From NCBI RefSeq assembly GCF_002217285.1, contig NZ_MUGW01000012.1, positions 1 to 64,000 on the forward strand: DNA of 64,000 nucleotides. Direction: 5' to 3'. Each line of letters opens with the position of its first letter. Within the stretch, counting starts at the first letter, position 1. This document shows, one piece after another, positions 28,883-41,112 of this stretch. Source of the DNA: Flavobacterium hercynium (GTDB lineage Bacteria; Bacteroidota; Bacteroidia; Flavobacteriales; Flavobacteriaceae). A program made the translations under genes and the position numbers. The notes under the pieces are model-generated. The model saw only the letters and a program-made list of their open reading frames with translations. It was not told the origin of the DNA and searched no databases.

Positions 28883-29213
28883 TTCCAATCAAAATTGTTT
28901 AAATCTTTTTCCTATAAATGGCTATTTAATAAATCTTAGAAACTTCCTATTGGATTTAATTTTCAGGACAATCTTTTATAGTTCTTTTTGTGTTTATATA
29001 TTTTTTTTAAGTTTCCTTTTTGCTTAAAAGAGTCATCCTATGTCATTAATCCTTAATATTTTACCGACAAAATAGTAGTAGACAGTAAAATGGATTAAAA
29101 TATTTTTAGCTATAAATATTTAAAAATCAATGCTTTAAAACGAAGCAATGGAATTAGTTTTAAATTTTCGTGAAAAATATTTTAAACTATACTAATTCGG
29201 TAGAATTAATATG

Positions 29214-29221
29214 TATATTTG
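29214..29221 (+). promoter_or_regulatory. Flavobacterial -7 element for the riboswitch transcript
   Basis: TATATTTG matches the Bacteroidota TAnnTTTG consensus. It is 25 bp before the P1 stem of the SAM riboswitch, so transcription should start at about 29226-29230. A clear -33 TTG was not found at the normal distance. Confidence 0.6.
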
Positions 29222-29245
29222 CAAAGTAGAAAAAATTCTACGAGA

Positions 29246-29342
29246 CTTATCCAGAAAGACTGAGGGAAGAGGCCCTGTGAAGTCTTAGCAACCTGTTTCT
29301 CAATAAGGTGCTAAATCCTTCCTGCTTTGCGGGACAGATAAG
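29246..29342 (+). promoter_or_regulatory. SAM-I (S-box) riboswitch
   Basis: Conserved SAM-I elements occur in order. P1 is formed by CTTATC (29246-29251) and GATAAG (29337-29342). P2 with its kink-turn begins GACTGAGGGA, continues GGCCCTGTGAAGTC, and then shows AGCAACC. The P3/J3-4 core has AAGGTGCTAAATCC, and P4 is CCTGC-TTTG-CGGG-like. SAM binding would normally reduce expression downstream. No classical T-run terminator follows, so control may act on translation or through a short hairpin at 29345-29364 (AGATTT/AAATCT). The next large gene is the SusC-type receptor. Confidence 0.93.
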
Positions 29343-29400
29343 ATAGATTTCATTTAGAAAATCTGAATAAGCTCAATCAAACATTAAATTCTATTCTAAG

Positions 29401-29496
29401 ATGAAAACTGAGCTATTATTACATGCCGATTACAAAAAAAATAAAATGTCTTTAAAGGAAAACAATCCTATAGTTTTCCGAATGCAAAATCATTAA
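29401..29496 (+). CDS. Putative 31-residue small ORF in the riboswitch leader
   Basis: An ATG-started frame of 31 codons lies between the riboswitch and the SusC gene, beginning MKTELLLHADYKKNKMSL and ending FRMQNH. Three Met codons occur at 1, 16 and 28. It has no signal peptide and no recognised family. It could be a leader peptide that couples translation to the riboswitch, or chance. A small hairpin (TATCAG 29522-29527, CTGATA 29533-29538) follows before the receptor start. Confidence 0.4.
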   Translation: MKTELLLHADYKKNKMSLKENNPIVFRMQNH

Positions 29497-29596
29497 TATT
29501 TTCTAAAACCATTCCTGTTTTTATCAGGTTCACTGATAGGTCGTTTTGCTACTGGCCCGGGAATTTCCATGTTCAATTTTTAAAAAACCAAACTCA

Positions 29597-32500
29597 ATGA
29601 AACAAAAATTATTAATTCTAATTTTTCTGTTCAGCATAATTGCCGGAAAAGTAAATGCGCAAGAACGAACGATCAGTGGTACTGTTAGAGGATCCGATAA
29701 CGGAGAACCTTTGCCGGGAGTTACAATTCTGGCTGTAGAAAGTAATAAATCGACTGTCAGCGATGCAAACGGAAAGTTTTCTTTGGCCGTAACCCAACAA
29801 GACAAAGTAGTTACTATCAATTATATTGGTTACGAAACGCTTGAAAAAAGAGTCAATTCTTCTTTTAATGATATTCTGTTAAATCCTTCTAATACAGCTT
29901 TGAAAGAGGTTTTGGTTGTAGGTTACGGAACACAGAGTAAAAAAGAGTTTACCGGTTCTGCAGCCAGAGTAACCTCAAAAACAATTAAAGATATTCCTGT
30001 TCAGAGTTTTCAACAGGCACTTATTGGTAAAGCTTCAGGAGTAAATGTTTCAACACCAAGTGGAGTTTTAAACGATACTCCGGTCATTCGAATTCGTGGT
30101 GTCAATTCCATATCACTTAGTACATCGCCTTTAATTGTAATTGATGGAATTCCGGTTAATTCCGGGGAAGTGTCTACAACGAATTCAGTTGCCAATAATC
30201 CACTTGCAGATATTAACCCGTCTGATATTGAGTCGATTGATATTCTAAAAGATGCAGCTTCTACTTCAATTTACGGTTCACGTGCTGCCGGTGGAGTTAT
30301 TTTAGTTACCACCAAAAAAGGAAAAACAGGTAAAGCAAAAGTAACTTACGACAGTTGGTTCGGAATTACCAGAGCAACAAGACTTCCTAAACTTTTAAAT
30401 AACACTCAATTTGAAGATATTAAAAACGAAGCCGTTTTAAACAGTAAAAATTTAAGTGGCAACGGAAATAACACAGCGGTAGCTTCGGCACTTTTTTTCC
30501 CTTCTTACAATGCAGATGGTTCACGCGTTAATACAAATTGGCAGGATCAGGTCTACCGTGATGCCATTTCTCAAAACCATAATGTGAGTATCTCCGGTGG
30601 AACAGACAAAACAAAATATTTTTTCTCTACCAATTATTCCAAACAAGAAGGAATTACAAAAGACAATGAGTTCGAAAGAAAAGGAGCCCGATTTAATATA
30701 GATCATGAAGTAAACAGCTGGTTGAAATTAGGCGGAAATCTTTCGTATAACAATACATTTAATCAGGCACAAAATACAGGCTCGCTAAGCAGCAGCGGAT
30801 TATTATTAATTGGCGCAGCACGTTTGGCTTTGGCGCTTCCTCCAAACGTTTCTCCTTATAATGAAGATGGTACTTATAATTTAAGTCCAACAGGAACAGC
30901 AAATCCGGGAAATAATTTGTTTACCAATACATTATGGCATCCGGGAGCGCTGTTTGAAAATAGTAAATACACTAGTTCAAACGATCATTTTGTTGGAAAT
31001 GTACACGCTACAATTACGTTTTTCGAAGGATTTAAATTTGATAGTAATTACGGATTTGACAGATTAGGAGCAGATAATATAACCTATTTGAGTCCAAATC
31101 TTGGATCTTCTGCATTTGCTACAAGCGGTTCATCTACGAATATTGCAGCTTTAAGAGATAATTACAATTTTACCAACAGTTTATCTTTCGACAGACGATT
31201 TGGTCAAAATCATCACGTTGCCGCATTGGCAGGCTACGATGTTCAGAGATTCGAAAACTCTTCCTGGGGAGCCAATCAAACGAACGTTTCAGACCCATTT
31301 TTTGAAAATTATCAGGGAACCTGGGGAACCATCAGAGCATCTGGAAACGGTTTGTCAGAACGACTTTTTCTTTCTTCTTTCTTCAGATTATCTTATGATT
31401 ATGCAGGGAAATATTTCATAACAGGAAACTTTAGAAAAGACGGAAACTCCGCTTTGGGAGTTAATAACAAATACGGAAACTTTGGCGGTATCTCTGCAGG
31501 ATGGTCTGTAAGCGAAGAATCTTTCTTTAAGAACAGCGGTATTACAGATTATTTCAGTTCACTTAAACTAAAAGGAAGCTGGGGAAGAGTAGGTAACGGA
31601 AACCTTTCGTCAGCTTATGCCTCGCAAAACCTTTATGGAGCATCCATTTACGGAACAGCATCAACGTGGGCTATTTCTCAGGCAGGAAATGAAAATTTAG
31701 GATGGGAAACAAGCGACCAGACCAATATTGGAATTGAAGCAGGCTTCTTTAAAGACAGATTAGAATTTACAGCGGATTATTTCAATAATAATGTAAACGG
31801 ATTAATTTTGAGTACACCACAATCACCTTCAAAAGGAATTCCCGGAGATGCTATTCTTTCTAACGTTGGGTCTATGTACAATCGTGGTATCGAGTTAGGT
31901 CTGAATGCTTCGATTGTAAATAATGAAAATTTTCAATGGAAAGCTTCCTTCAATTATACACATGTAAAAAATAAAGTTACGGCTCTTGCCGAAGGAAATA
32001 CAGATATTATAGGATATACTCAGGTCACTACAGAAGCCAATAATATTACGAGAGTAGGTTATTCTGCCGGAAGTCTTTATGGAGCCGTAACAGCAGGAGT
32101 AAATCCGGAGAACGGACAGAGAATATTTCTAAACAAAAATGGAGAAAAAGTACAATACAGCGCAGCAGCTCCTTCTGGACAAAGCAACTGGACGTACTTA
32201 GACGGGACAACGGCGCAAGCGATTACAGTTTCTGATTATCAGGTTTTGGGTAATGCGCTGCCGGTTTGGTACGGAGGTTTAACCAATAACTTCCAATACA
32301 AAGCCTTTGACTTTACAGTAGGGTTTACGTATTCCGGAGGAAACAAAGTAATGAACAATACAAGAGGAACTCTTCTGGATCAGCGCTTTTACAACAATTC
32401 AACAGAAGTCTTAAACCGCTGGACAACACCAGGTCAGGTTACAGATATTCCAAGAGTGGTTTATAATGATGTTATCTCAAACGGATCAAGCGGATATGCT

Positions 32501-32767
32501 ATTTCTGATAATGCAGAAAAAGCAGATTTCTTAAGATTACAGCAGTTGGCGATTGGTTTTTCGCTTCCAAAAAATATTTTAGAAAAAGCACAAGTAGCAT
32601 CTGTTAGACTTTATCTGCAGGCAACCAATCTTTTCCTGATTACTTCCTACTCGGGTTCTGACCCTGAAACTTCTTCAAACGGAGATTCAACAACCTCTAT
32701 GGGAGTAGAAAAGAATTCTGTAGGACAAGGGAGAACTTTCACATTTGGTCTTAACGTCGGTTTCTAA
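29597..32767 (+). CDS. SusC/RagA-type TonB-dependent outer-membrane receptor
   Basis: A 1056-residue receptor; the start at 29597 (MKQKLLILIFLF) gives a normal signal peptide ending near NAQ, whereas the longer frame from 29546 adds 17 unsupported residues. A carboxypeptidase-like regulatory domain (about 22-105), the SusC signature LKEVLVVGYGTQ, the plug (DIPVQSFQQALIGKASGV) and a 22-strand barrel ending in an aromatic (FGLNVGF) follow. It imports ligands captured by the SusD partner using TonB energy. The SAM riboswitch upstream and two peptidases downstream point to peptides or sulphur amino acids rather than glycans. Confidence 0.93.
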   Translation: MKQKLLILIFLFSIIAGKVNAQERTISGTVRGSDNGEPLPGVTILAVESNKSTVSDANGKFSLAVTQQDKVVTINYIGYETLEKRVNSSFNDILLNPSNTALKEVLVVGYGTQSKKEFTGSAARVTSKTIKDIPVQSFQQALIGKASGVNVSTPSGVLNDTPVIRIRGVNSISLSTSPLIVIDGIPVNSGEVSTTNSVANNPLADINPSDIESIDILKDAASTSIYGSRAAGGVILVTTKKGKTGKAKVTYDSWFGITRATRLPKLLNNTQFEDIKNEAVLNSKNLSGNGNNTAVASALFFPSYNADGSRVNTNWQDQVYRDAISQNHNVSISGGTDKTKYFFSTNYSKQEGITKDNEFERKGARFNIDHEVNSWLKLGGNLSYNNTFNQAQNTGSLSSSGLLLIGAARLALALPPNVSPYNEDGTYNLSPTGTANPGNNLFTNTLWHPGALFENSKYTSSNDHFVGNVHATITFFEGFKFDSNYGFDRLGADNITYLSPNLGSSAFATSGSSTNIAALRDNYNFTNSLSFDRRFGQNHHVAALAGYDVQRFENSSWGANQTNVSDPFFENYQGTWGTIRASGNGLSERLFLSSFFRLSYDYAGKYFITGNFRKDGNSALGVNNKYGNFGGISAGWSVSEESFFKNSGITDYFSSLKLKGSWGRVGNGNLSSAYASQNLYGASIYGTASTWAISQAGNENLGWETSDQTNIGIEAGFFKDRLEFTADYFNNNVNGLILSTPQSPSKGIPGDAILSNVGSMYNRGIELGLNASIVNNENFQWKASFNYTHVKNKVTALAEGNTDIIGYTQVTTEANNITRVGYSAGSLYGAVTAGVNPENGQRIFLNKNGEKVQYSAAAPSGQSNWTYLDGTTAQAITVSDYQVLGNALPVWYGGLTNNFQYKAFDFTVGFTYSGGNKVMNNTRGTLLDQRFYNNSTEVLNRWTTPGQVTDIPRVVYNDVISNGSSGYAISDNAEKADFLRLQQLAIGFSLPKNILEKAQVASVRLYLQATNLFLITSYSGSDPETSSNGDSTTSMGVEKNSVGQGRTFTFGLNVGF

Positions 32768-32785
32768 TAAATAATAAAAATTACA

Positions 32786-34243
32786 ATGAAAACATATATA
32801 AAATCATATCGAAAATCAATTGCAGCAGTAGCACTTCTTTCGGGACTATTATTTACTTCTTGTGAAAATAATGAAGATTTAGCCATAACACCGGAAACCA
32901 CCGTTTCTGATCAGGATATTTTTAAAACTCCCGCCAGAATTGAAGGTTTGGTAAACGGAATTTACAAAGCGTTTAAAGGTGCGAGTCTTTACGGTGGACG
33001 TTTCCTTTTGTATCAGGATCAGCGAGGCGAAGATTTCATCAACATTACGGCAAATAACTTTACAGGTTACGAAAGTTGGAACAATTCATACAGCTCTGGT
33101 TCAAATGACATTAATAATCTTTGGTCAGCAGCCTATTCAGCAATCAATAGAGCGAATATTTTAATTGAAGGACTAGCTGTAAATCAAGGTGTAATTACAG
33201 AACAAAAAGCCAACGAATATATCGGTGAAGCCAAATTAATAAGAGCGTTATCATATTACAGTTTGGTAGTTAGTTTTGGACAGCCTTACAATAAAGATGC
33301 AGGAGCATCTCAAGGAGTTCCTTTACGTTTAAAAGCAGAAACAGGTACAGCCAATAATGATTTGGCAAGAAGTACTGTTGCAGAAATTTATACGCAGATA
33401 TTAAAAGATCTGGATGATGCAGAGGCAGCTCTACCACAGAGTTATACCAGCGCAGATTTGAATACAACAAGAGCACACGTAAGCACAGCAATTGCTTTAA
33501 AAACAAGAGTATATCTTTCGCAGAATAATTGGGCAAAAGTAATTGAGGAAGCGGCAAAATTAGCACCGCAGACACAAGCGCCGTTTTCTACCACCGCCAG
33601 CGAAGTAAAACATGCCTTACAGCCGGATATTACCGTTTTGTTTTCGTCCAATTATGCAACTGTTGAATCTATTTTTAGTATTCCGATGAGTAGTTTGGAT
33701 TCGTATACAGGACAATCTGCGATAGCGTACATCTACAATACCAATTTAGAATATTATTTAAATCCGACCGGTATTTTGGGTGATGCACAGTGGGGAGCTA
33801 CTGATAAAAGACGTGATTTAACAAGAACCGTTTCCGGAAAACAATATTTTAAAAAATACGCAAAACCGTCACCATTCTTAGATTATATTCCTGTTGTTCG
33901 CTATTCAGAAGTTTTATTGAATTATGCCGAAGCAGCCGCTAAAACCGGAGACCTTACATTAGCAGCTAATCTTTTAAGAGCGGTTCACCTTCGTTCTGAT
34001 CCTTCGTATGTATTTTCTGCAACAGTAACTTCTGATCCAGTACAGCTGATCGACGCTATTTGGAAAGAACGCCGAATTGAGTTGTTAGGAGAAGGTTTTC
34101 GCGGATTAGATTTACTAAGAAACCTACAGGATCTTCCTGCGAAAGGAGACAGTAAACTGCAAACACCAGCCGTTGTGCCTTCAGCAGCTAATTATATTTT
34201 TCCGGCTCCAAATACCGAATTAGCAACGAATAAATTGTATTAA
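32786..34243 (+). CDS. SusD/RagB family surface lipoprotein
   Basis: A 485-residue lipoprotein (FTSC, C26) of the SusD/RagB family, 18 bp after susC. The TPR-like helical N half (IEGLVNGIYKAFKG, LWSAAYSAINRANILIEGL, AKLIRALSYYSLVVSFG) and the C-terminal ERRIELLGEGFRGLDLLR signature are typical. It forms the lid of the SusC barrel and captures substrate at the cell surface. The ligand is not known, but the downstream peptidases suggest peptides, as for RagB. Confidence 0.93.
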   Translation: MKTYIKSYRKSIAAVALLSGLLFTSCENNEDLAITPETTVSDQDIFKTPARIEGLVNGIYKAFKGASLYGGRFLLYQDQRGEDFINITANNFTGYESWNNSYSSGSNDINNLWSAAYSAINRANILIEGLAVNQGVITEQKANEYIGEAKLIRALSYYSLVVSFGQPYNKDAGASQGVPLRLKAETGTANNDLARSTVAEIYTQILKDLDDAEAALPQSYTSADLNTTRAHVSTAIALKTRVYLSQNNWAKVIEEAAKLAPQTQAPFSTTASEVKHALQPDITVLFSSNYATVESIFSIPMSSLDSYTGQSAIAYIYNTNLEYYLNPTGILGDAQWGATDKRRDLTRTVSGKQYFKKYAKPSPFLDYIPVVRYSEVLLNYAEAAAKTGDLTLAANLLRAVHLRSDPSYVFSATVTSDPVQLIDAIWKERRIELLGEGFRGLDLLRNLQDLPAKGDSKLQTPAVVPSAANYIFPAPNTELATNKLY

Positions 34244-34291
34244 AAATAACTTAGAAACTTAGTCAGGGTTTCACTTAAAAAAACAAATAAA

Positions 34292-35278
34292 ATGAAAAAG
34301 ATACTATTAGGTTTTGCTTTATTTCTTGGCATAACACAAAGTCAGGCACAAGAGCATAATTTGCAATTAAAAGGAACTGTAGCAGATACTGTTGCTCAAT
34401 ATGTGTATTTGCAAAAATTCCACAATAAAATGTTTACTACAATTGATTCTGTAAAAGTTAAAGACGGAAGTTTCAGTTTTAAAACAAAAGTAAAAACGTC
34501 TGAATTATATGGTCTAAGCGTAAATACAGCCAATATTCCGCTGTATGTTTTCCTTGAAAAAACACCAATTACGGTAAAATTAAGTCCGGTAAAAAATTAC
34601 AGCACTTCGGTTGTGGAAGGTTCAGCTTCTCAGGATTTATTTGATGTTTACAGAAAAACAAAAAACGTAGAAATCAGCAAGTTCATCACAGAACATCCGG
34701 CTTCTATCGTATCCGCTTATGTTTTGTACAGAAACTGGTCGTACAGATTAACTCCGGATCAAATCACACAAAATATTGCTTTGTTAGATAAAAGCCAGCA
34801 AAATAGCACTTACGTGAAAGAACTAAAGGAACTGGTTAAGGTTTTAAACGGATTGCAAATTGGAAAAAAAGCCCCCGATTTTACAGCCAACAATCCGGAC
34901 GGAAAACCAGTTCGTTTTTCAGAAAACCTCAAAGGCGAATATACTTTGGTTGATTTCTGGGCTTCATGGTGTGCGCCGTGCCGAAAAGAGAATCCAAATA
35001 TTGTGGCAGCTTACAAACAATATCACGACAAAGGATTCAACATTATAGGCATCTCTTTAGATAAAAAGAAAGAAAACTGGATAAAAGGAATTAAAGATGA
35101 TAATTTAGATTGGCTTCAGGTTTCAGAATTGATTTACTGGAACAGTGCCATTGCCAAATTGTATGGTGTAAGAGCAATTCCAGCCAATTATCTGGTAGAT
35201 TCAAAAGGAATTATTGTAGCGAGAAATCTTCGCGGAGAAGAACTTCAAACAACACTGAAATCACTTTTAGACAAATAA
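34292..35278 (+). CDS. TlpA-like thioredoxin-fold protein with DUF4369 domain
   Basis: A 328-residue exported protein: signal peptide about 1-19 (QSQAQE), a DUF4369 beta domain (about 22-115), a helical linker, and a TlpA/AhpC-type thioredoxin fold (about 190-328). The active site is WCAPC (C227, C230), and the cis-Pro region is RAIPANYLVDSKG. It would be a periplasmic thiol-disulphide oxidoreductase. Inside a SAM-riboswitch locus it could reduce disulphide-bearing or oxidised Cys peptides before uptake; that is inference. It lies 48 bp after susD. Confidence 0.88.
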   Translation: MKKILLGFALFLGITQSQAQEHNLQLKGTVADTVAQYVYLQKFHNKMFTTIDSVKVKDGSFSFKTKVKTSELYGLSVNTANIPLYVFLEKTPITVKLSPVKNYSTSVVEGSASQDLFDVYRKTKNVEISKFITEHPASIVSAYVLYRNWSYRLTPDQITQNIALLDKSQQNSTYVKELKELVKVLNGLQIGKKAPDFTANNPDGKPVRFSENLKGEYTLVDFWASWCAPCRKENPNIVAAYKQYHDKGFNIIGISLDKKKENWIKGIKDDNLDWLQVSELIYWNSAIAKLYGVRAIPANYLVDSKGIIVARNLRGEELQTTLKSLLDK

Positions 35279-35286
35279 TGTATACG

Positions 35287-35316
35287 AACCTGTACGATGG
35301 TAAAATCGTACAGGTT
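35287..35316 (+). terminator. Strong hairpin between tlpA-like and M14 genes (attenuator)
   Basis: A perfect 12-bp stem, AACCTGTACGAT (35287-35298) and ATCGTACAGGTT (35305-35316), with a 6-nt loop, 8 bp after the stop. The following TAAATTTTAA is only weakly T-rich, so partial termination or mRNA stabilisation within the operon is more likely than a full stop. Confidence 0.6.
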
Positions 35317-35336
35317 TAAATTTTAATGATAAAAAA

Positions 35337-36581
35337 ATGAAAAGGAAATTATTTTTTTCAACCGTTGTACTATTTGCTTTAGCGGCAAATGCACAGGTAA
35401 AAAGTACTTTTAAAGGACAAGATCCCATTACGGCTGTTTCAACAGTAACGCGTCCTGTGCAAAAACAATGGAAAGGTGTTTTTGATAAAACAGGCGATGA
35501 GGTTTTCTTCGGAAATAACTTTGCAGGCGCAAGACTAAACGGAGTTGTCAAAATTGATGAAACAACATTCAGCGTTTTGATTACACCTGAAAACACGCCA
35601 ATTAACGGAAGTCCTTGGTATGCTTTTAAAGTTTGGTCAAAAACAAACAAAGAAATCAAAATTCGGTTTGATTATCCGCAGAATGTAAAACATCGCTACA
35701 ATGCTAAAATCAGTAACGATGGCAAAAAATGGGAGGCCTCTCAAAATGGAACTTTCGTAAAAAGAGAAAAAGATTCCAACTATGTTTTGACAGTAAAAGT
35801 CAGTAAAGACACTACTTGGATTGCAGCGCAGGAACTTAAAACCTCTAAAGATATCAAGGAATGGATTTCTGCATTAAAAAACAAAAACAATACAGCAGAA
35901 ACTTCTATAGGTTTAACTGCCGAAGGGCGCAAGATTCCGGTTTTTAGCATTGGAAATACGTCATCTAAAAATAAAATCCTGATTTCGGGCAGAAACCATC
36001 CGCCGGAAGTTACAGGACATTATGCGCTCGAAGCTTTTATTGAAAGCTTGACAGCCGATACACCATTGGCAAAAAAGTTCAGAAAGAAATTTGAAGTGTA
36101 CGTAATTCCACTTTTAAATCCAGATGGAGTCGACGGTGGTTTTTGGAGACATAATTCGGGCGGAATCGATTTAAACCGGGATTATAATGACTTCAATCAG
36201 CCGGAAACAAAAGCAGTTCGGGATTTCTTGAAAAATGAAATTAAAGGCGAAAATAAATTGTTGTTTTCGATTGATTTTCATTCCACTCACGATGATATTT
36301 ATTATACCGTTGATCCCGAATTGAAAGGTAATATTCCGGGTTTTGTGCCCAATTGGCTCAACAAAGTCAAAGACGGAATTCCGGGTTATACACCGCATGT
36401 AAAACCGTTGTATTTTAAACCACCGACTTTTACTTTATTCAGTTATTTATTTGAAACCTATAAAACAGAAGCATTGGTTTTTGAAATTGGAGATAGTACG
36501 CCAAAAGATTTCATTAAAAAGAAAGGCGAAGTTTCGGGAGAAGAATTTATGAAATTGATATTAGAAAGCAGTAAAAACTAA
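35337..36581 (+). CDS. M14 family zinc carboxypeptidase
   Basis: A 414-residue exported metallocarboxypeptidase. A signal peptide (about 1-20, ANAQV) and a beta-rich N domain (about 30-165) precede the M14 catalytic domain. Zinc ligands are H221 and E224 (RNHPPEVTG) and H315 (IDFHSTH). NPDGVDGG and GIDLNRDYND supply substrate contacts, and E383 (VFEIGDS) is the likely catalytic Glu. It would trim C-terminal residues from peptides in the periplasm. It is the fourth gene downstream of the SAM riboswitch and lies 12 bp before the S9 peptidase gene. Confidence 0.9.
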   Translation: MKRKLFFSTVVLFALAANAQVKSTFKGQDPITAVSTVTRPVQKQWKGVFDKTGDEVFFGNNFAGARLNGVVKIDETTFSVLITPENTPINGSPWYAFKVWSKTNKEIKIRFDYPQNVKHRYNAKISNDGKKWEASQNGTFVKREKDSNYVLTVKVSKDTTWIAAQELKTSKDIKEWISALKNKNNTAETSIGLTAEGRKIPVFSIGNTSSKNKILISGRNHPPEVTGHYALEAFIESLTADTPLAKKFRKKFEVYVIPLLNPDGVDGGFWRHNSGGIDLNRDYNDFNQPETKAVRDFLKNEIKGENKLLFSIDFHSTHDDIYYTVDPELKGNIPGFVPNWLNKVKDGIPGYTPHVKPLYFKPPTFTLFSYLFETYKTEALVFEIGDSTPKDFIKKKGEVSGEEFMKLILESSKN

Positions 36582-36593
36582 AAGAATAGGGGA

Positions 36594-38759
36594 ATGAATA
36601 CAATAAAAAATAAAATTAGTACCGCCTTACTACTTCTGGCAGCAGTGAGTTGTTTCGGGCAGCAGAAAAAAGAATTAATTCAAGTTACGGATCTTTTAAA
36701 AATAAGAACGGTTGGTGATGTAGAATTGAGCAAAGACGGGCAGAACGCCGTTTTTACTGTAAAAAGTATCATTAAAAATCCGGAAAACGCATTAGATTAT
36801 GATTATGATACACAGCTTTGGATCACTAAAACGGCAAAGAACAGCAAACCAAGACAATTAACTTTTGGAAAAGAAGGATCAAGTTCTCCGGTTTTCAGCC
36901 CTGACGGAAAACAAATTGCTTTTACAAGAAGCATAAAAGGAAAATCACAAGTATTCCTTTTTACGGTTGATGAAGGTGGAGAAGCGGTTCAGTTAACGAC
37001 TTCTAAATATGGTGCCGGAAACCCAAAATGGAGTCCTGACGGAAAGCAGATTTTGTTTACGGCTTCTCTTCAAATCAATGAGTTGGTTAAAGATTCGGTT
37101 TTAAATCCCAATAAAGAATTACCTGTTTGGAGTTATGAAAAACCAGGATTTGCTGCCAATGAAAACTTGATAGTTAATAAAGCCAAAGCTGATCCAAACG
37201 GAAGTATTGAAGCGATCAGAGCCTATTTAGACAATAACGAAAAAGACAAAAAAGCAAAAGTAATGGATAAGCTCCAATTTCAAACGGAAACAGGACTTAG
37301 CAGTGAACTTCGTTTTTCGCATGTTTTTATAATCGATGCAAAACCGGGAGCAAAAGAACATGCCATTACCAAAGGATTTTATTCGTATTCTAATCCATCT
37401 TTTGTGAGCAATACTAAAATTGTGTTTAGCGGAAATATCAAGGAGAAAAGACATCCGGACAGAGTTCTGGAAAGTAAGATCTACACGATCAATACCGACG
37501 GAACTAACGTAACCGAATTACTTGGCGCCGAAAATCAGGTTTTCCAACTTTTGGCCGTTTCTCCTTCAGGAAAACAATTGGCTTATCAGGAAAGTATCAT
37601 CAATAATTTATCGGTTCCGGTTCTTAAAATTTTCAATTTAGAAAATCCTTCGGCGGAAAGCCAAACAATTGAATATGATCGAAATAACAACAATGTAAGA
37701 TTCTCGAAAGATGAAAAACAGCTTTATTTTACATCATCAAGTAATGGAGGATCTGCCATCTGCACAGTATCGCTCAATACGCTAAAAGTAACAGCACTTA
37801 CTTCATTTGATCAGGGAATTACAGATTATGATATTAACAACGGTGTTGTCGTTTTCTCTAAGACAGATGTCAAAAATCCATCAGAATTGTATGTTGCTGA
37901 CTTGAAATTAAAAGAGCCCAAATTGATATCAGAGTTCAATACAAAATGGCTGGAGAACAAACAAATCAGCTTGCCGGAAAAAGGCACTTTTGTAAACGAA
38001 AAAGGGCTTGAGATCGAATATTGGGTTATGAAACCCACTCGTTTTGAAGAAGGAAAAAAATATCCCCTGTTAACAGAAATCCACGGAGGTCCGGCGTCTA
38101 TGTTTGGTCCCGGTGACGGAAGCATGTGGCTGGAATATCAATTTTTTACAGCTCAGGGTTATGGAGTAGTGTACAGTAATCCAAGAGGTTCATCAGGCTA
38201 CGGAGAAAAATTCTTAAGATCGAATATCAACGATTGGGGAACCGGACCGGCAAGTGATGTTTTAACAGCATTAGACAAAACGGTTGCACAAGGCTGGGCA
38301 GATCAAAGCCGACTCTTTATTACGGGAGGATCTTATGCAGGTTATTTAACCACCTGGATTATCAGTCATGATCAGCGATTTAAAGCAGCTTCAAGTCAGC
38401 GTGGCGTTTATGATTTCAGTACCTTTTTTGGAGAAGCCAATGTATGGAGAATGGTACCGAGATATTTCGGAGGTTATCCTTGGGAAGAAAAAACAAAAGC
38501 AATTTTAGAGCGCGAATCTCCAATTAACTATGTAGAAAATATCAATACACCATTTTTGATTTTCCACGGTGATAATGATAATCGCACCGGCGTTACACAA
38601 AGTCAGATGTTGTACAAAAGCCTTAAAGTTTTAGGTAAACCAGTTGAATATGTAAGACAGCCCGGAGCAAGCCACGAATTGACCAGAAGCGGAGACAACC
38701 GTCAGAGAATTGACCAGCTGCTTCGAACGTATGAATTCTTTGAAAGATTCAATCATTAA
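36594..38759 (+). CDS. S9 family prolyl-oligopeptidase-type peptidase
   Basis: A 721-residue exported serine peptidase. The N terminus has a signal sequence (VSCFGQ; a Cys at about 20 could alternatively be lipidated). A WD40/TolB-type beta propeller (about 40-440, with repeats such as SPDGKQIAFT) precedes the alpha/beta hydrolase domain. The triad is S580 in GGSYAG, D662 in HGDNDNRT and H694 in GASHEL. It resembles dipeptidyl or acylaminoacyl peptidases. With the M14 enzyme it would break imported peptides down to amino acids. It is the last gene of the riboswitch-headed group. Confidence 0.9.
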   Translation: MNTIKNKISTALLLLAAVSCFGQQKKELIQVTDLLKIRTVGDVELSKDGQNAVFTVKSIIKNPENALDYDYDTQLWITKTAKNSKPRQLTFGKEGSSSPVFSPDGKQIAFTRSIKGKSQVFLFTVDEGGEAVQLTTSKYGAGNPKWSPDGKQILFTASLQINELVKDSVLNPNKELPVWSYEKPGFAANENLIVNKAKADPNGSIEAIRAYLDNNEKDKKAKVMDKLQFQTETGLSSELRFSHVFIIDAKPGAKEHAITKGFYSYSNPSFVSNTKIVFSGNIKEKRHPDRVLESKIYTINTDGTNVTELLGAENQVFQLLAVSPSGKQLAYQESIINNLSVPVLKIFNLENPSAESQTIEYDRNNNNVRFSKDEKQLYFTSSSNGGSAICTVSLNTLKVTALTSFDQGITDYDINNGVVVFSKTDVKNPSELYVADLKLKEPKLISEFNTKWLENKQISLPEKGTFVNEKGLEIEYWVMKPTRFEEGKKYPLLTEIHGGPASMFGPGDGSMWLEYQFFTAQGYGVVYSNPRGSSGYGEKFLRSNINDWGTGPASDVLTALDKTVAQGWADQSRLFITGGSYAGYLTTWIISHDQRFKAASSQRGVYDFSTFFGEANVWRMVPRYFGGYPWEEKTKAILERESPINYVENINTPFLIFHGDNDNRTGVTQSQMLYKSLKVLGKPVEYVRQPGASHELTRSGDNRQRIDQLLRTYEFFERFNH

Positions 38760-38870
38760 AAAAAGTCATTCTCAAAAAACAGTAATTTTTAGACCAATGT
38801 TCCTATTTTAACCGATCTTTGCACCGGAAAATCGGTAAAAATATCCGCCGAGTTAATTTAAAAAATACGC

Positions 38871-40085
38871 ATGCAAATTATTTCAAATAAAAAGCTTAAA
38901 AAAGAAAATCAAAAAATAGCGACCTTAATATCCTTTGCTCTTATACCTCTTTCAGGGTTTGCAACAGATATTTATCTCCCGTCAATGCCTTCTATGGGAA
39001 CTGCTCTTCATATTAGTAGTCTGGAGATACAGCTGACTTTAAGTATATTTCTTATCAGTTATGGTGTAGCTCAGTTATTTATTGGAAGTATTGTAGATAG
39101 TTTTGGCCGATACAATATTAGTTTGACGGCGATGGTACTTTTCATTCTTTCCTGTTTGGTGATTGCCAATACCCAAAATATTTATCTTATTTATACGATG
39201 AGGTTAATACATGGAATTACAGTCGCCGGGATCGTGGTGGCTAAAAGAGCTTATTTTGTTGATCTTTTTGAAGGAGAACAGTTAAAGATTTACCTGAGTA
39301 TCTTTACTATAATTTGGTCTACGGGACCTATAATTGCGCCATTTATTGGTGGATATCTTCAGGAAATTTTCGGATGGGAAGCCAATTTTTATTTTTTAGG
39401 TGCAGTGGCCGCAGTATTTTTTGTACTTGAAATGGTATTTGGCGGTGAGACAATAAAGGCTCCAATGGAATTCAATATAAAGAAAATTGGAGGTATCTAT
39501 TTGGAAATGCTTAAAACACCAAGTTTTATGCTTGGCGTTTTTATGCTCGGATTAGCCTATTCGATGGTAATGGTTTACAATATGTCAGGGCCTTTTATTA
39601 TAGAGCACGAGCTGTTGCTTACGCCTGTAGTGGCTGGATATTGTTCTCTAATACTTGGATTTGCATGGATGGCAGGTGGTTTTATTGGTAAAGCAACTAT
39701 TAAAATTCCTTTCTATAAAAAAATGGCAATAAATATTCTGATGCAAATCATTTTTGTAGTCGCTATGATTTTAGCTGTGGGCTTCTATTCCAGTGTTTTT
39801 ACATTAGTACTTTTTGCATTTCTAATTCATGTCTGTTCAGGTTACACCTATAACAATTATTTTGTGTTTAGTCTCAGCAGTTTTCCTAAAAATGCAGGTA
39901 TAGCTGGTGGACTCACAGGAGGAATTGTTTATATTTTGGTCTCTTTTTTAAGTTTCTTCATTATAAAATTTTTACCGGCAAAAGACCAGTATAACCTTAG
40001 TTACAGCTATTTAATATTAGCACTGCTTTCCGGACTTGTAATGTTTATCATTGTCCGTTATGTAAAGAACATTACTCAAAAGTAA
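38871..40085 (+). CDS. MFS transporter, Bcr/CflA-type drug exporter
   Basis: A 404-residue inner-membrane protein with 12 predicted helices. Family features include PLSGFATDIYLPSMPSMG at helix 1, the motif A region GSIVDSFGRYNIS, and the GPIIAPFIGGYLQEIFGWEANFYFLG segment read in pieces. This is the DHA1 Bcr/CflA pattern, usually proton-driven export of drugs or amino acids. An inverted repeat ACCGAT/ATCGGT (38811-38836) lies in its leader. It converges on a MarR-GNAT gene. Confidence 0.88.
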   Translation: MQIISNKKLKKENQKIATLISFALIPLSGFATDIYLPSMPSMGTALHISSLEIQLTLSIFLISYGVAQLFIGSIVDSFGRYNISLTAMVLFILSCLVIANTQNIYLIYTMRLIHGITVAGIVVAKRAYFVDLFEGEQLKIYLSIFTIIWSTGPIIAPFIGGYLQEIFGWEANFYFLGAVAAVFFVLEMVFGGETIKAPMEFNIKKIGGIYLEMLKTPSFMLGVFMLGLAYSMVMVYNMSGPFIIEHELLLTPVVAGYCSLILGFAWMAGGFIGKATIKIPFYKKMAINILMQIIFVVAMILAVGFYSSVFTLVLFAFLIHVCSGYTYNNYFVFSLSSFPKNAGIAGGLTGGIVYILVSFLSFFIIKFLPAKDQYNLSYSYLILALLSGLVMFIIVRYVKNITQK

Positions 40086-40112
40086 AATAATAGATATCTT
40101 CTAAAAATAAAG

Positions 40113-40184
40113 TAGCCGTTGCATCAGTCAGATTTTTTTCTTCAAAAAGAATTTTTCGCACCTGATACAACGGCTAGTTTTTTT
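40113..40184. terminator. Bidirectional terminator between MFS and MarR-GNAT genes
   Basis: TAGCCGTTG (40113-40121) pairs with CAACGGCTA (40168-40176); additional CATCAG/CTGAT pairing extends the stem around a long loop. The plus side continues with GTTTTTTTATT to about 40184. Confidence 0.75.
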
Positions 40185-40188
40185 ATTG

Positions 40189-41112
40189 CTATAGGTGTAG
40201 ATCGTAGCGTTCAAGAAGAAACGTATTTCCCCATTGACTAACTTCTTGGGTTTCACTTAACTCAAAACCAACTTGTTTATACATGTCCAAAGCACGTTCC
40301 TGCATGTTTGTGGTAAGCAAATAAATGTTTTTATATCCTTTTATTTGACAGAAATCTAATGCCTCACCTAAAAGTTTTTTTCCTATCCCTAATCCTCTGA
40401 CAGACGGATCTAATAAAAACCATCTGAGCTGCGCTTCCAGATCTGTCTGATGTACTATAGCAATGCAGCCCACAATTTGATTATTCAGTTCAGCCAGCCA
40501 CAAGCGATCCTTTTCTGGCCTATAATCTGCGAGAAAGTGATGAAATGTCTCCACTACATAAGATTCAAATTCCGATGAAAATCCGGACTCCTTATTGTAA
40601 ATTTTACCATGAAGATGAATGATATAACCAATGTCTCCTGGCCTTAAATCATACCTGTAAGTAATGTTGACCGGCGCGATTTTATCTTCCTCATTCTTTA
40701 GCAGTTTTTTTATAGTGGCCATCGCGTCCACTAGTTTTTCCTGTTCGCTGGTCGTAAGACTCTGGATTCTTAATTTTGTTTGGTCATCGGCAATGTCATT
40801 CAACTCTTTAAGTAATTCGGTACCCAAAGTCGTAAGCTTAATAGTAAAGGCACGCCTGTCCGTTACGGAATGACATTTTTCAATCACACCATCCTTTGTG
40901 AGGCGCTTGACTACTCTGCTCATATATCCCTTGTCAAGATTTAAAATTCCACATATATTTTTGGCAGTTGTTTGCTGAGCTTCCGCGATTTCATGAATAA
41001 TGCGTATTTCAGTTACTGAGTATTGGCTTTCAAGATAAAACTGATCCAATATATCCAAATGGGATACATAGAATCGGTTAAACGATCTGATTTCGGAGGT
41101 TATGTTGGTCAT
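40189..41112 (-). CDS. MarR regulator fused to GNAT acetyltransferase
   Basis: A 307-residue fusion. Residues 1-145 form a MarR winged helix (ICGILNLDKGYMSRVVKRLTKDGVIEK in pieces, DRRAFTIKLT). Residues about 155-305 form a GNAT fold with acetyl-CoA motif RGLGIGKKLLGEAL and NMQERALDMYKQVGFEL. Such MarR-GNAT fusions are a known domain architecture. The regulator half may sense the substrate that the other half acetylates. It converges with an MFS exporter gene. Confidence 0.9.
   Translation of the reverse strand: MTNITSEIRSFNRFYVSHLDILDQFYLESQYSVTEIRIIHEIAEAQQTTAKNICGILNLDKGYMSRVVKRLTKDGVIEKCHSVTDRRAFTIKLTTLGTELLKELNDIADDQTKLRIQSLTTSEQEKLVDAMATIKKLLKNEEDKIAPVNITYRYDLRPGDIGYIIHLHGKIYNKESGFSSEFESYVVETFHHFLADYRPEKDRLWLAELNNQIVGCIAIVHQTDLEAQLRWFLLDPSVRGLGIGKKLLGEALDFCQIKGYKNIYLLTTNMQERALDMYKQVGFELSETQEVSQWGNTFLLERYDLHL

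Follow-up and report, generated by a model that had tools for sequence, protein, structure and literature searches.

A SAM-I riboswitch and a conserved leader open reading frame precede a SusCD, thioredoxin and peptidase gene block in Flavobacterium hercynium: a candidate system for scavenging sulphur amino acids from peptides

Introduction

The closest described relatives of the locus reported here are the regulons of the SAM-I (S-box) riboswitch, named for S-adenosylmethionine (SAM), the RagAB/SusCD outer-membrane importers, the SufS cysteine desulfurases and a few leader systems of other bacteria. The locus lies in a stretch of 64,000 nucleotides of Flavobacterium hercynium (contig NZ_MUGW01000012.1, positions 1 to 64,000), hereafter the window, where a SAM-I aptamer and a short leader open reading frame (ORF) stand before five genes, susC-susD-tlpA-M14-S9, whose products are an outer-membrane importer, a protein of thioredoxin type and a pair of peptidases. 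Most SusCD importers have no known substrate and are usually regarded as glycan importers; since a riboswitch names the nutrient that is scarce, it allows a substrate to be proposed for an orphan SusCD and put to the test.

Like the members of known SAM-I regulons, the window aptamer scores over the RF00162 cut-off, and 100 of the 110 sites surveyed in the class Bacteroidia head metH or metX/Y/B; the window SAM-I differs in heading a SusCD importer with a thioredoxin and peptidases. The resemblance to RagAB/SusCD importers rests on the SusC/RagA and SusD family scores and on the presence among the solved relatives of RagA, a peptide importer, whereas the window block is riboswitch-headed, is coupled to TlpA, M14 and S9 (in relatives also to AT5, a class-V pyridoxal-phosphate (PLP) enzyme, and to MetNIQ) and contains no carbohydrate enzymes. 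AT5, found in relatives and on contig C33 of the window's genome, has the PLP lysine and the catalytic cysteine of SufS aligned, but falls below the SufS cut-off and is placed under SAM-I by position, adjoining TlpA.

In Bacteroides thetaiotaomicron a thiamine pyrophosphate (TPP) riboswitch precedes an outer-membrane thiamine transporter, which is likewise riboswitch control of a Bacteroidota outer-membrane transporter, with another ligand and another cargo, a vitamin and not a peptide; the same report also notes leader-peptide-like small ORFs in long 5' untranslated regions, without validation (PMC7366714). A second source describes leader ORFs with cysteine codons before cysS and others, with Arg-Leu-Arg, before hflX (PMC8632094); like that of the window these are short leader ORFs, with codons of the limiting amino acid or with an R-x-R tail. 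The window ORF differs in its place behind a SAM-I aptamer and in a leader where no terminator was found. Taken singly, SAM-I, SusCD, TlpA and the peptidases each belong to a known kind, and a riboswitch acting on an outer-membrane transporter of Bacteroidota has its precedent in thiamine uptake (PMC7366714). The preliminary description of this DNA had supposed that the combination might be new as a unit, and the open-licence literature, with subscription papers and preprints outside the search, indeed gave no description of a SAM-I - SusCD operon or of a SAM-I and leader-peptide tandem.

The Riboswitch-Headed Gene Block

A covariance-model scan placed SAM-I (RF00162) at 29244-29344 of the plus strand with 79.1 bits (gathering score 44.4, E 6.1e-17) over the full length of the model (positions 1-108 of 108). 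This is the sole Rfam match above the gathering score in the window and confirms the complete aptamer reported from the letters alone. Compensatory changes support the fold, with 8 of 24 pairs changed on both sides among 22 genus aptamers. At a distance of 252 nt from the aptamer begins susC, at ATG 29597 (TTG 29546 being the mechanical ORF start), and the other four genes follow collinearly on the same strand with gaps of 18 nt (susC-susD), 48 nt (susD-tlpA), 58 nt (tlpA-M14) and 12 nt (M14-S9), in agreement with the earlier range of 12-58. The features are as follows.

29214..29221, plus strand: TATATTTG, resembling the -7 element TAnnTTTG; the sole TAnnTTTG in 29101-29250
29244..29344, plus strand: SAM-I riboswitch aptamer, by Rfam score and compensatory changes in the genus
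29401..29496, plus strand: leader ORF MKTELLLHADYKKNKMSLKENNPIVFRMQNH, with a conserved FRM tail
29539..29557, plus strand: short GGTC/GGCC hairpin 5' of susC, from RNAalifold on 12 leaders
29597..32767, plus strand: susC, TonB-linked outer-membrane importer (SusC/RagA, TIGR04056)
32786..34243, plus strand: susD, surface lipoprotein of the RagB/SusD family (SusD-like_3, SusD_RagB)
34292..35278, plus strand: tlpA-like thioredoxin with DUF4369 and the motif CAPC (AhpC-TSA + DUF4369)
35286..35317, plus strand: 13-bp hairpin with a weak T tail between tlpA and M14, a possible partial terminator
35337..36581, plus strand: M14 zinc carboxypeptidase (Peptidase_M14, motifs)
36594..38759, plus strand: S9 prolyl-oligopeptidase-family peptidase with beta propeller (Peptidase_S9)

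The family names given earlier held as well, each being above a curated Pfam or NCBIfam cut-off. SusC reached 773 bits with TIGR04056 (SusC/RagA; cut-off 368); SusD exceeded the curated cut-offs of SusD-like_3 and SusD_RagB and has, by eye, a lipobox-like LLFTSC; TlpA exceeded those of AhpC-TSA and DUF4369, with a CAPC active site, and fell below the NCBIfam cut-off for ResA (81 bits vs 170), so that it is TlpA-like by Pfam and CxxC only. M14 scored 80.8 bits vs 21.6 in Pfam, with the motifs HPPE, NRD, DFHS and EIG, and S9 155.5 bits vs 22.6; in the latter the canonical GxSxG pattern was unmatched, the serine sitting in GGSYAG, and the NCBIfam equivalog for dipeptidyl-peptidase DPP5 was not reached (236.1 vs 900). 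All five products have export-signal-like N-termini, as judged by eye. No carbohydrate-active enzyme family was found among the six genes at 29597-40085, and the locus is not a polysaccharide-utilisation locus by that criterion.

We regard it as somewhat probable that SAM-I and the leader ORF head a susC-susD-tlpA-M14-S9 block which scavenges methionine and cysteine from peptides at low SAM; the Met/Cys-peptide substrate, the control by SAM and the linkage of the genes in one transcript are what we infer from the sequence. A low level of SAM would release expression, oligopeptides would cross the outer membrane through SusCD, TlpA would reduce disulphides and keep thiols reduced, and S9 and M14 would cleave the peptides in the periplasm. 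Where they are present, MetNIQ would take up methionine and AT5 would free sulphur from cysteine for homocysteine synthesis.

Conservation of the Block in Relatives

A query with M14 over named GTDB genomes, of which the best 80 of 106 candidates were retained, gave 79 loci, and a SAM-I model for relatives was built from the 22 genus aptamers. This model matched 11 of the 79 M14 loci, in addition to the window: ten of Flavobacterium type (M14 identity 87-93%) and one of Pedobacter sp. MC2016-15, where the identities were 73% for SusC, 78% for SusD, 66% for TlpA, 55% for M14 and 57% for S9. The order susC-susD-tlpA-M14-S9 stood behind the aptamer in 11/11 of these named loci; in Pedobacter SAM-I lies immediately before susC and there is no AT5 within the stretch covered. 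Niastella vici keeps the same gene order without SAM-I, and 5' of its susC are ORFs of 196 and 395 aa which, by eye, resemble a sigma/anti-sigma pair. By gene labels, the full order was found in none of the other 67 M14 loci, some of which are cut by contig ends.

Within the genus, 12 of 398 genomes matched M14 with E no higher than 1e-60, and the seven with at least 88% identity, window included, all carry it in a SAM-I-headed block (7/7). Since these seven are the window or apparent duplicates of named records, they are not independent, and the distinct Flavobacterium-type genomes number 11. The preliminary description had taken aptamer and genes for one unit, and the order does stand behind SAM-I in these 11 genomes and one Pedobacter, although it is missing at most other genus sites of the riboswitch (see below). 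As far as the genomes compared can tell, the pairing of riboswitch and gene block is beyond chance. SAM-I as a general mark of SusCD was considered and rejected, susC standing behind 2 of the 110 class-wide sites; the model also gave no match within 1.5 kb on each side of 22 SusC relatives of the class sample (39-54% identity), nor within 1.5 kb on each side of 24 further loci of family f39.

Genes Headed by SAM-I at Other Sites

The window's genome holds four SAM-I aptamers, before metX, before metH (methionine cluster), in the window and on contig C33, the last heading a paralogous tlpA and AT5. The genus listing comprised 104 of 121 genomes with SAM-I, among the matches listed, and from these matches 20 sites were chosen whose aptamers measure about 100 nt and lie away from the met cluster; the choice omitted at least one comparable site, G077:C5. 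At 17 of the 20, SAM-I heads tlpA-AT5 without SusCD, M14 or S9; the complete block, with AT5 at its end, follows at two, and one (G004) precedes unrelated genes. In G004 (L052) the tlpA-type SAM-I stands about 1 kb before those genes, perhaps an orphan left by gene loss. At the 17 sites the riboswitch would serve TlpA-AT5 without importer or peptidases, so that the earlier expectation of a riboswitch conserved together with all its downstream genes stands only in part. By gene order TlpA and AT5 are the constant partners of this SAM-I type, and the importer and peptidases are either a jointly inherited addition or a component frequently lost.

In 10/10 named full blocks S9 is followed by AT5, with an additional ORF in between in two of them, and four of the ten continue with MetN, MetI and MetQ; at least four tlpA-AT5 loci also have a downstream metN. 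The best alignment of AT5 is with the cysteine desulfurase 8d8s (E 1.7e-37), in which the PLP lysine and the catalytic cysteine line up, its score with the SufS NCBIfam model being 157.7 vs a cut-off of 475.1. MetN of L038 lies above the methionine-transporter equivalog score (540.9 vs 499.7) and MetQ of the same locus above its subfamily cut-off (428.6 vs 374); the copies of MetNIQ in the window's own genome (G000:C20) are 88-91% identical.

The survey of the class Bacteroidia took in 110 SAM-I sites out of at least 150, own-genus rows and some others being left out, and site types were set by blastp to the proteins of the window's genome. There were 72 sites heading metH, 28 heading metX/Y/B, two heading susC and eight other or untyped, including two (L183, L258) with too little downstream sequence to type; the protein after SAM-I in L227 was named by eye only. 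Given the 72 and 28 sites before methionine genes, SAM-I marks methionine supply in Bacteroidia. The susC genes behind the two sites that head one are of another kind than that of the window.

Two f39 genomes (L264, L265) have a second, unrelated SusCD pair (SusD-like_2 type) directly behind SAM-I, and a pair of this type also stands behind SAM-I - tlpA - AT5 in one Flavobacterium (L040:5832-10448). SusC2 and SusD2 of G472 share 58-61% identity with the pair that follows SAM-I - tlpA - AT5 in G102, hence SusCD of two unrelated kinds occur near SAM-I. In one f39 genome (L250/L267, minus strand) SAM-I heads a 376-aa protein with the look of an IscS/NifS cysteine desulfurase, by eye only.

The abundance of SAM-I - tlpA - AT5 sites could also mean that SAM-I mainly controls TlpA and AT5, for thiol chemistry and sulphur release, and that SusCD-M14-S9 is a general peptide-uptake module sharing the leader in some genomes. 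Besides the 17 of 20 sites, the second such locus on C33 and the module without SAM-I in Niastella speak for this alternative, but in the distant Pedobacter SAM-I lies directly before susC with no AT5 in the covered stretch, and SusCD and M14-S9 are always jointly present or absent. In a tree of 31 TlpA proteins both halves were present in 13 rows and both absent in 18, and no locus had only one of them. The tree requires six changes between the two states, at least four forced by well-supported branches, and both outgroup rows carry the full block, which permits an ancestral block. We consider this alternative unlikely. L051 and L053 share the same downstream ORF pattern, by ORF lengths, and differ by both halves. 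In G887 (family f39) TlpA and M14 form a single protein (DUF4369, AhpC-TSA, Peptidase_M14) between susCD (61-65%) and S9. The joint presence and absence and this fusion are, at the level of gene content, good evidence for a shared function, which thiol reduction together with peptide trimming would provide.

The Leader ORF

Between aptamer and susC, an ORF ending in an RM tail (in most cases FRM and then R, Q or H) was found in 12/12 SAM-I - susC leaders, Pedobacter included, and in 11 of 18 SAM-I - tlpA leaders, out of 33 leaders examined overall. Two f39 loci with the other SusCD pair have leader ORFs ending in FFRMCM and IRMCM, no such ORF was seen in the G004 leader, and the RM leader ORF was not seen in the metX and metH SAM-I leaders of the window's genome. 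The Pedobacter ORF is rich in Cys and Met. The window ORF lacks Cys, and its inner Met codons number just two. G887 keeps the leader ORF (...TSCRPSMRMCC) without SAM-I. NCBIfam and Pfam hold no family matching these leader peptides.

In 108 loci, a set enriched for such loci by design and with some genomes in twice, 39 RM-type tails occurred among 8151 intergenic ORFs of 20-55 aa; 25 of the 39 have a gene within 450 nt, and all 25 are the SAM-I leaders above. Alignment of 22 leader ORFs gave 0 in-frame stops vs 51 and 40 in the other frames, a count that owes partly to the selection of ORFs, and ratios of synonymous to non-synonymous single differences of 776:1273 in frame 0 vs 560:1392 and 446:1592. 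There is thus moderate support for translation of the leader ORF. As a predicted second input, shortage of Met or Arg (in relatives, of Met or Cys) would slow the ribosome at the corresponding codons of the ORF.

It is also quite conceivable, and only a little short of an even case, that the ORF is not a regulatory peptide and that the conserved TTCCGAATGCG stretch acts as RNA only. Where the frame stops short (at FAFF in five tlpA leaders) the nucleotide sequence is still retained, the synonymous excess is moderate and no terminator/antiterminator pair was found. Against an RNA-only role, the RM loci lack in-frame stops, with the reservation on ORF selection given above, and in Pedobacter and the two f39 loci the RM[RC] tail is preserved, along with many Cys/Met, although the nucleotides differ; moreover, ORFs rich in Cys/Met are enriched after SAM-I across the class.

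Leader Peptides of Other Sulphur Amino Acid Genes

This enrichment amounts to 10 of the 110 class SAM-I sites with an ORF within 260 nt whose final 10 residues include at least four Cys/Met, where shuffling predicts 0.18; one tail, before metY, reads ...YNCNMCMCCCC. These ORFs right after SAM-I come from several Bacteroidia families (L202, L208, L221, L228, L229, L239, L253, L255, L259, L262). As a loose control, 33 Cys/Met-rich tails were counted in 26182 small ORFs anywhere in the 108 loci, and two of them pointed to the metN and L265 leaders.

In Flavobacterium, 8/8 metN leaders read carry an NYY...MMCC-like leader peptide, with exact MMCC in five. The loci with metN leader peptide and terminator are:

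L038, L039, L047, L054, L061, L063, L064, L065
G000:C20 (L323), the window genome's own

The Met-Met-Cys-Cys-like codons lie inside a hairpin, a U-tailed hairpin of 11-14 bp begins 53-58 nt before metN in the four leaders measured, and a CUGGCUU-like segment can pair with the AAGCC arm of the terminator hairpin as a possible antiterminator. The metN leader of the window's genome has NMAMCCM and a similar hairpin. All eight leaders show a control-codon ORF followed by a U-tailed terminator hairpin, the classical attenuator layout, here before a methionine transporter and with a predicted function. Considering the metN and the Cys/Met-rich leaders, leader-peptide control of sulphur-amino-acid genes in these bacteria looks real as far as leader layout goes, and the window ORF may be a variant of such Met/Cys leader peptides.

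Substrate and Control of the Block

Several observations count against a peptide-scavenging block under joint control of SAM-I and leader ORF. In addition to the 17 sites with tlpA-AT5 only, the SAM-I-free order of Niastella vici and the retention of the genes without SAM-I in G887, seven of the 18 tlpA leaders lack the RM tail, five of them ending at FAFF. Terminator scans and RNAalifold on the 12 susC leaders showed no terminator or other expression platform in the window leader; together with an 8-leader alignment they gave conserved hairpins but, for the window, no terminator/antiterminator pair. AT5 and MetNIQ of the window's genome lie on C33 and C20, unlinked to the block. The hairpin between tlpA and M14 could, with its weak T tail, split the transcript and lower read-through into M14-S9; as a conserved terminator it was rejected, the gaps of relatives holding differing palindromes and that of Pedobacter being almost absent. 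Finally, the nearest solved chains of SusC and SusD do not separate peptide from glycan cargo, and a substrate assignment from these two sequences was rejected as indecisive. The sulphur-amino-acid peptide scavenging put forward in the preliminary description therefore holds where conserved order, TlpA-M14 fusion and MetNIQ/AT5 neighbours fit it, and is weakened by the majority of SAM-I sites lacking SusCD and peptidases. The leader ORF, the tlpA-AT5 sites, the AT5/MetNIQ neighbours and the metN leader peptides with terminator had escaped that description.

Concerning the substrate, the importer might instead take up a specific thiol compound, glutathione disulphide or another gamma-glutamyl peptide, as a sulphur source. 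The nearest solved chains of the window M14 include cytosolic-carboxypeptidase types, and some cytosolic carboxypeptidases cut glutamate; in Flagellimonas, homologues of M14 (48%) and AT5 (55%) lie near a gamma-glutamyltranspeptidase, an N-formylglutamate-amidohydrolase-like gene and amidohydrolases. However, the window block has no transpeptidase gene, and the Flagellimonas loci have other SusD types and no SAM-I, which makes this substrate improbable in our judgement.

Extending the Met/Cys-peptide scavenging proposed for the window, we put forward, tentatively and as a possibility that falls short of probable, a two-input leader of Bacteroidota, SAM-I plus a Met/Cys or FRM peptide, driving a dedicated SusCD-TlpA-M14-S9-AT5-MetNIQ pathway from outside Met/Cys peptides to homocysteine synthesis; this would be the counterpart, for peptides and under a riboswitch, of a polysaccharide utilisation locus. 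Should the leader ORFs act in the predicted way, the supplies of SAM and of aminoacyl-tRNA would be read in one leader.

Other Features of the Leader and the Flanks

The TATATTTG element, TAnnTTTG being presumably the -7 element of Bacteroidota promoters, is kept in most of the 12 leaders and shifted in L058. A GTAGAAAAAATTCTAC hairpin at 29226-29241 lies where the transcript is predicted to have its 5' end, and in the alignment some relatives show paired substitutions in it (CACAGAAAATTTCTG...); the GGTC/GGCC hairpin at 29539-29557 is retained with pair changes in relatives. In G472, where SAM-I precedes another susC, a 13-bp U-tailed terminator lies 39 nt downstream of the scanned region, ahead of the RMCM ORF.

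In the Flagellimonas/Allomuricauda loci L077 and L079-L083, AT5 (55%) and M14 (47-48%) homologues are grouped with genes of amidohydrolase size; L077 contains an N-formylglutamate-amidohydrolase-like gene, two amidohydrolases, SusD and a gamma-glutamyltranspeptidase.

Downstream of the block, a major facilitator superfamily (MFS) gene begins at 38871, 111 nt past S9 and outside the conserved block. In the stretch 38760-41112 of the window this Bcr/CflA-like gene (38871-40085) is preceded by the inverted repeat ACCGAT...ATCGGT, and it is faced by a MarR/acetyltransferase-like gene, the MarR name being given by eye.

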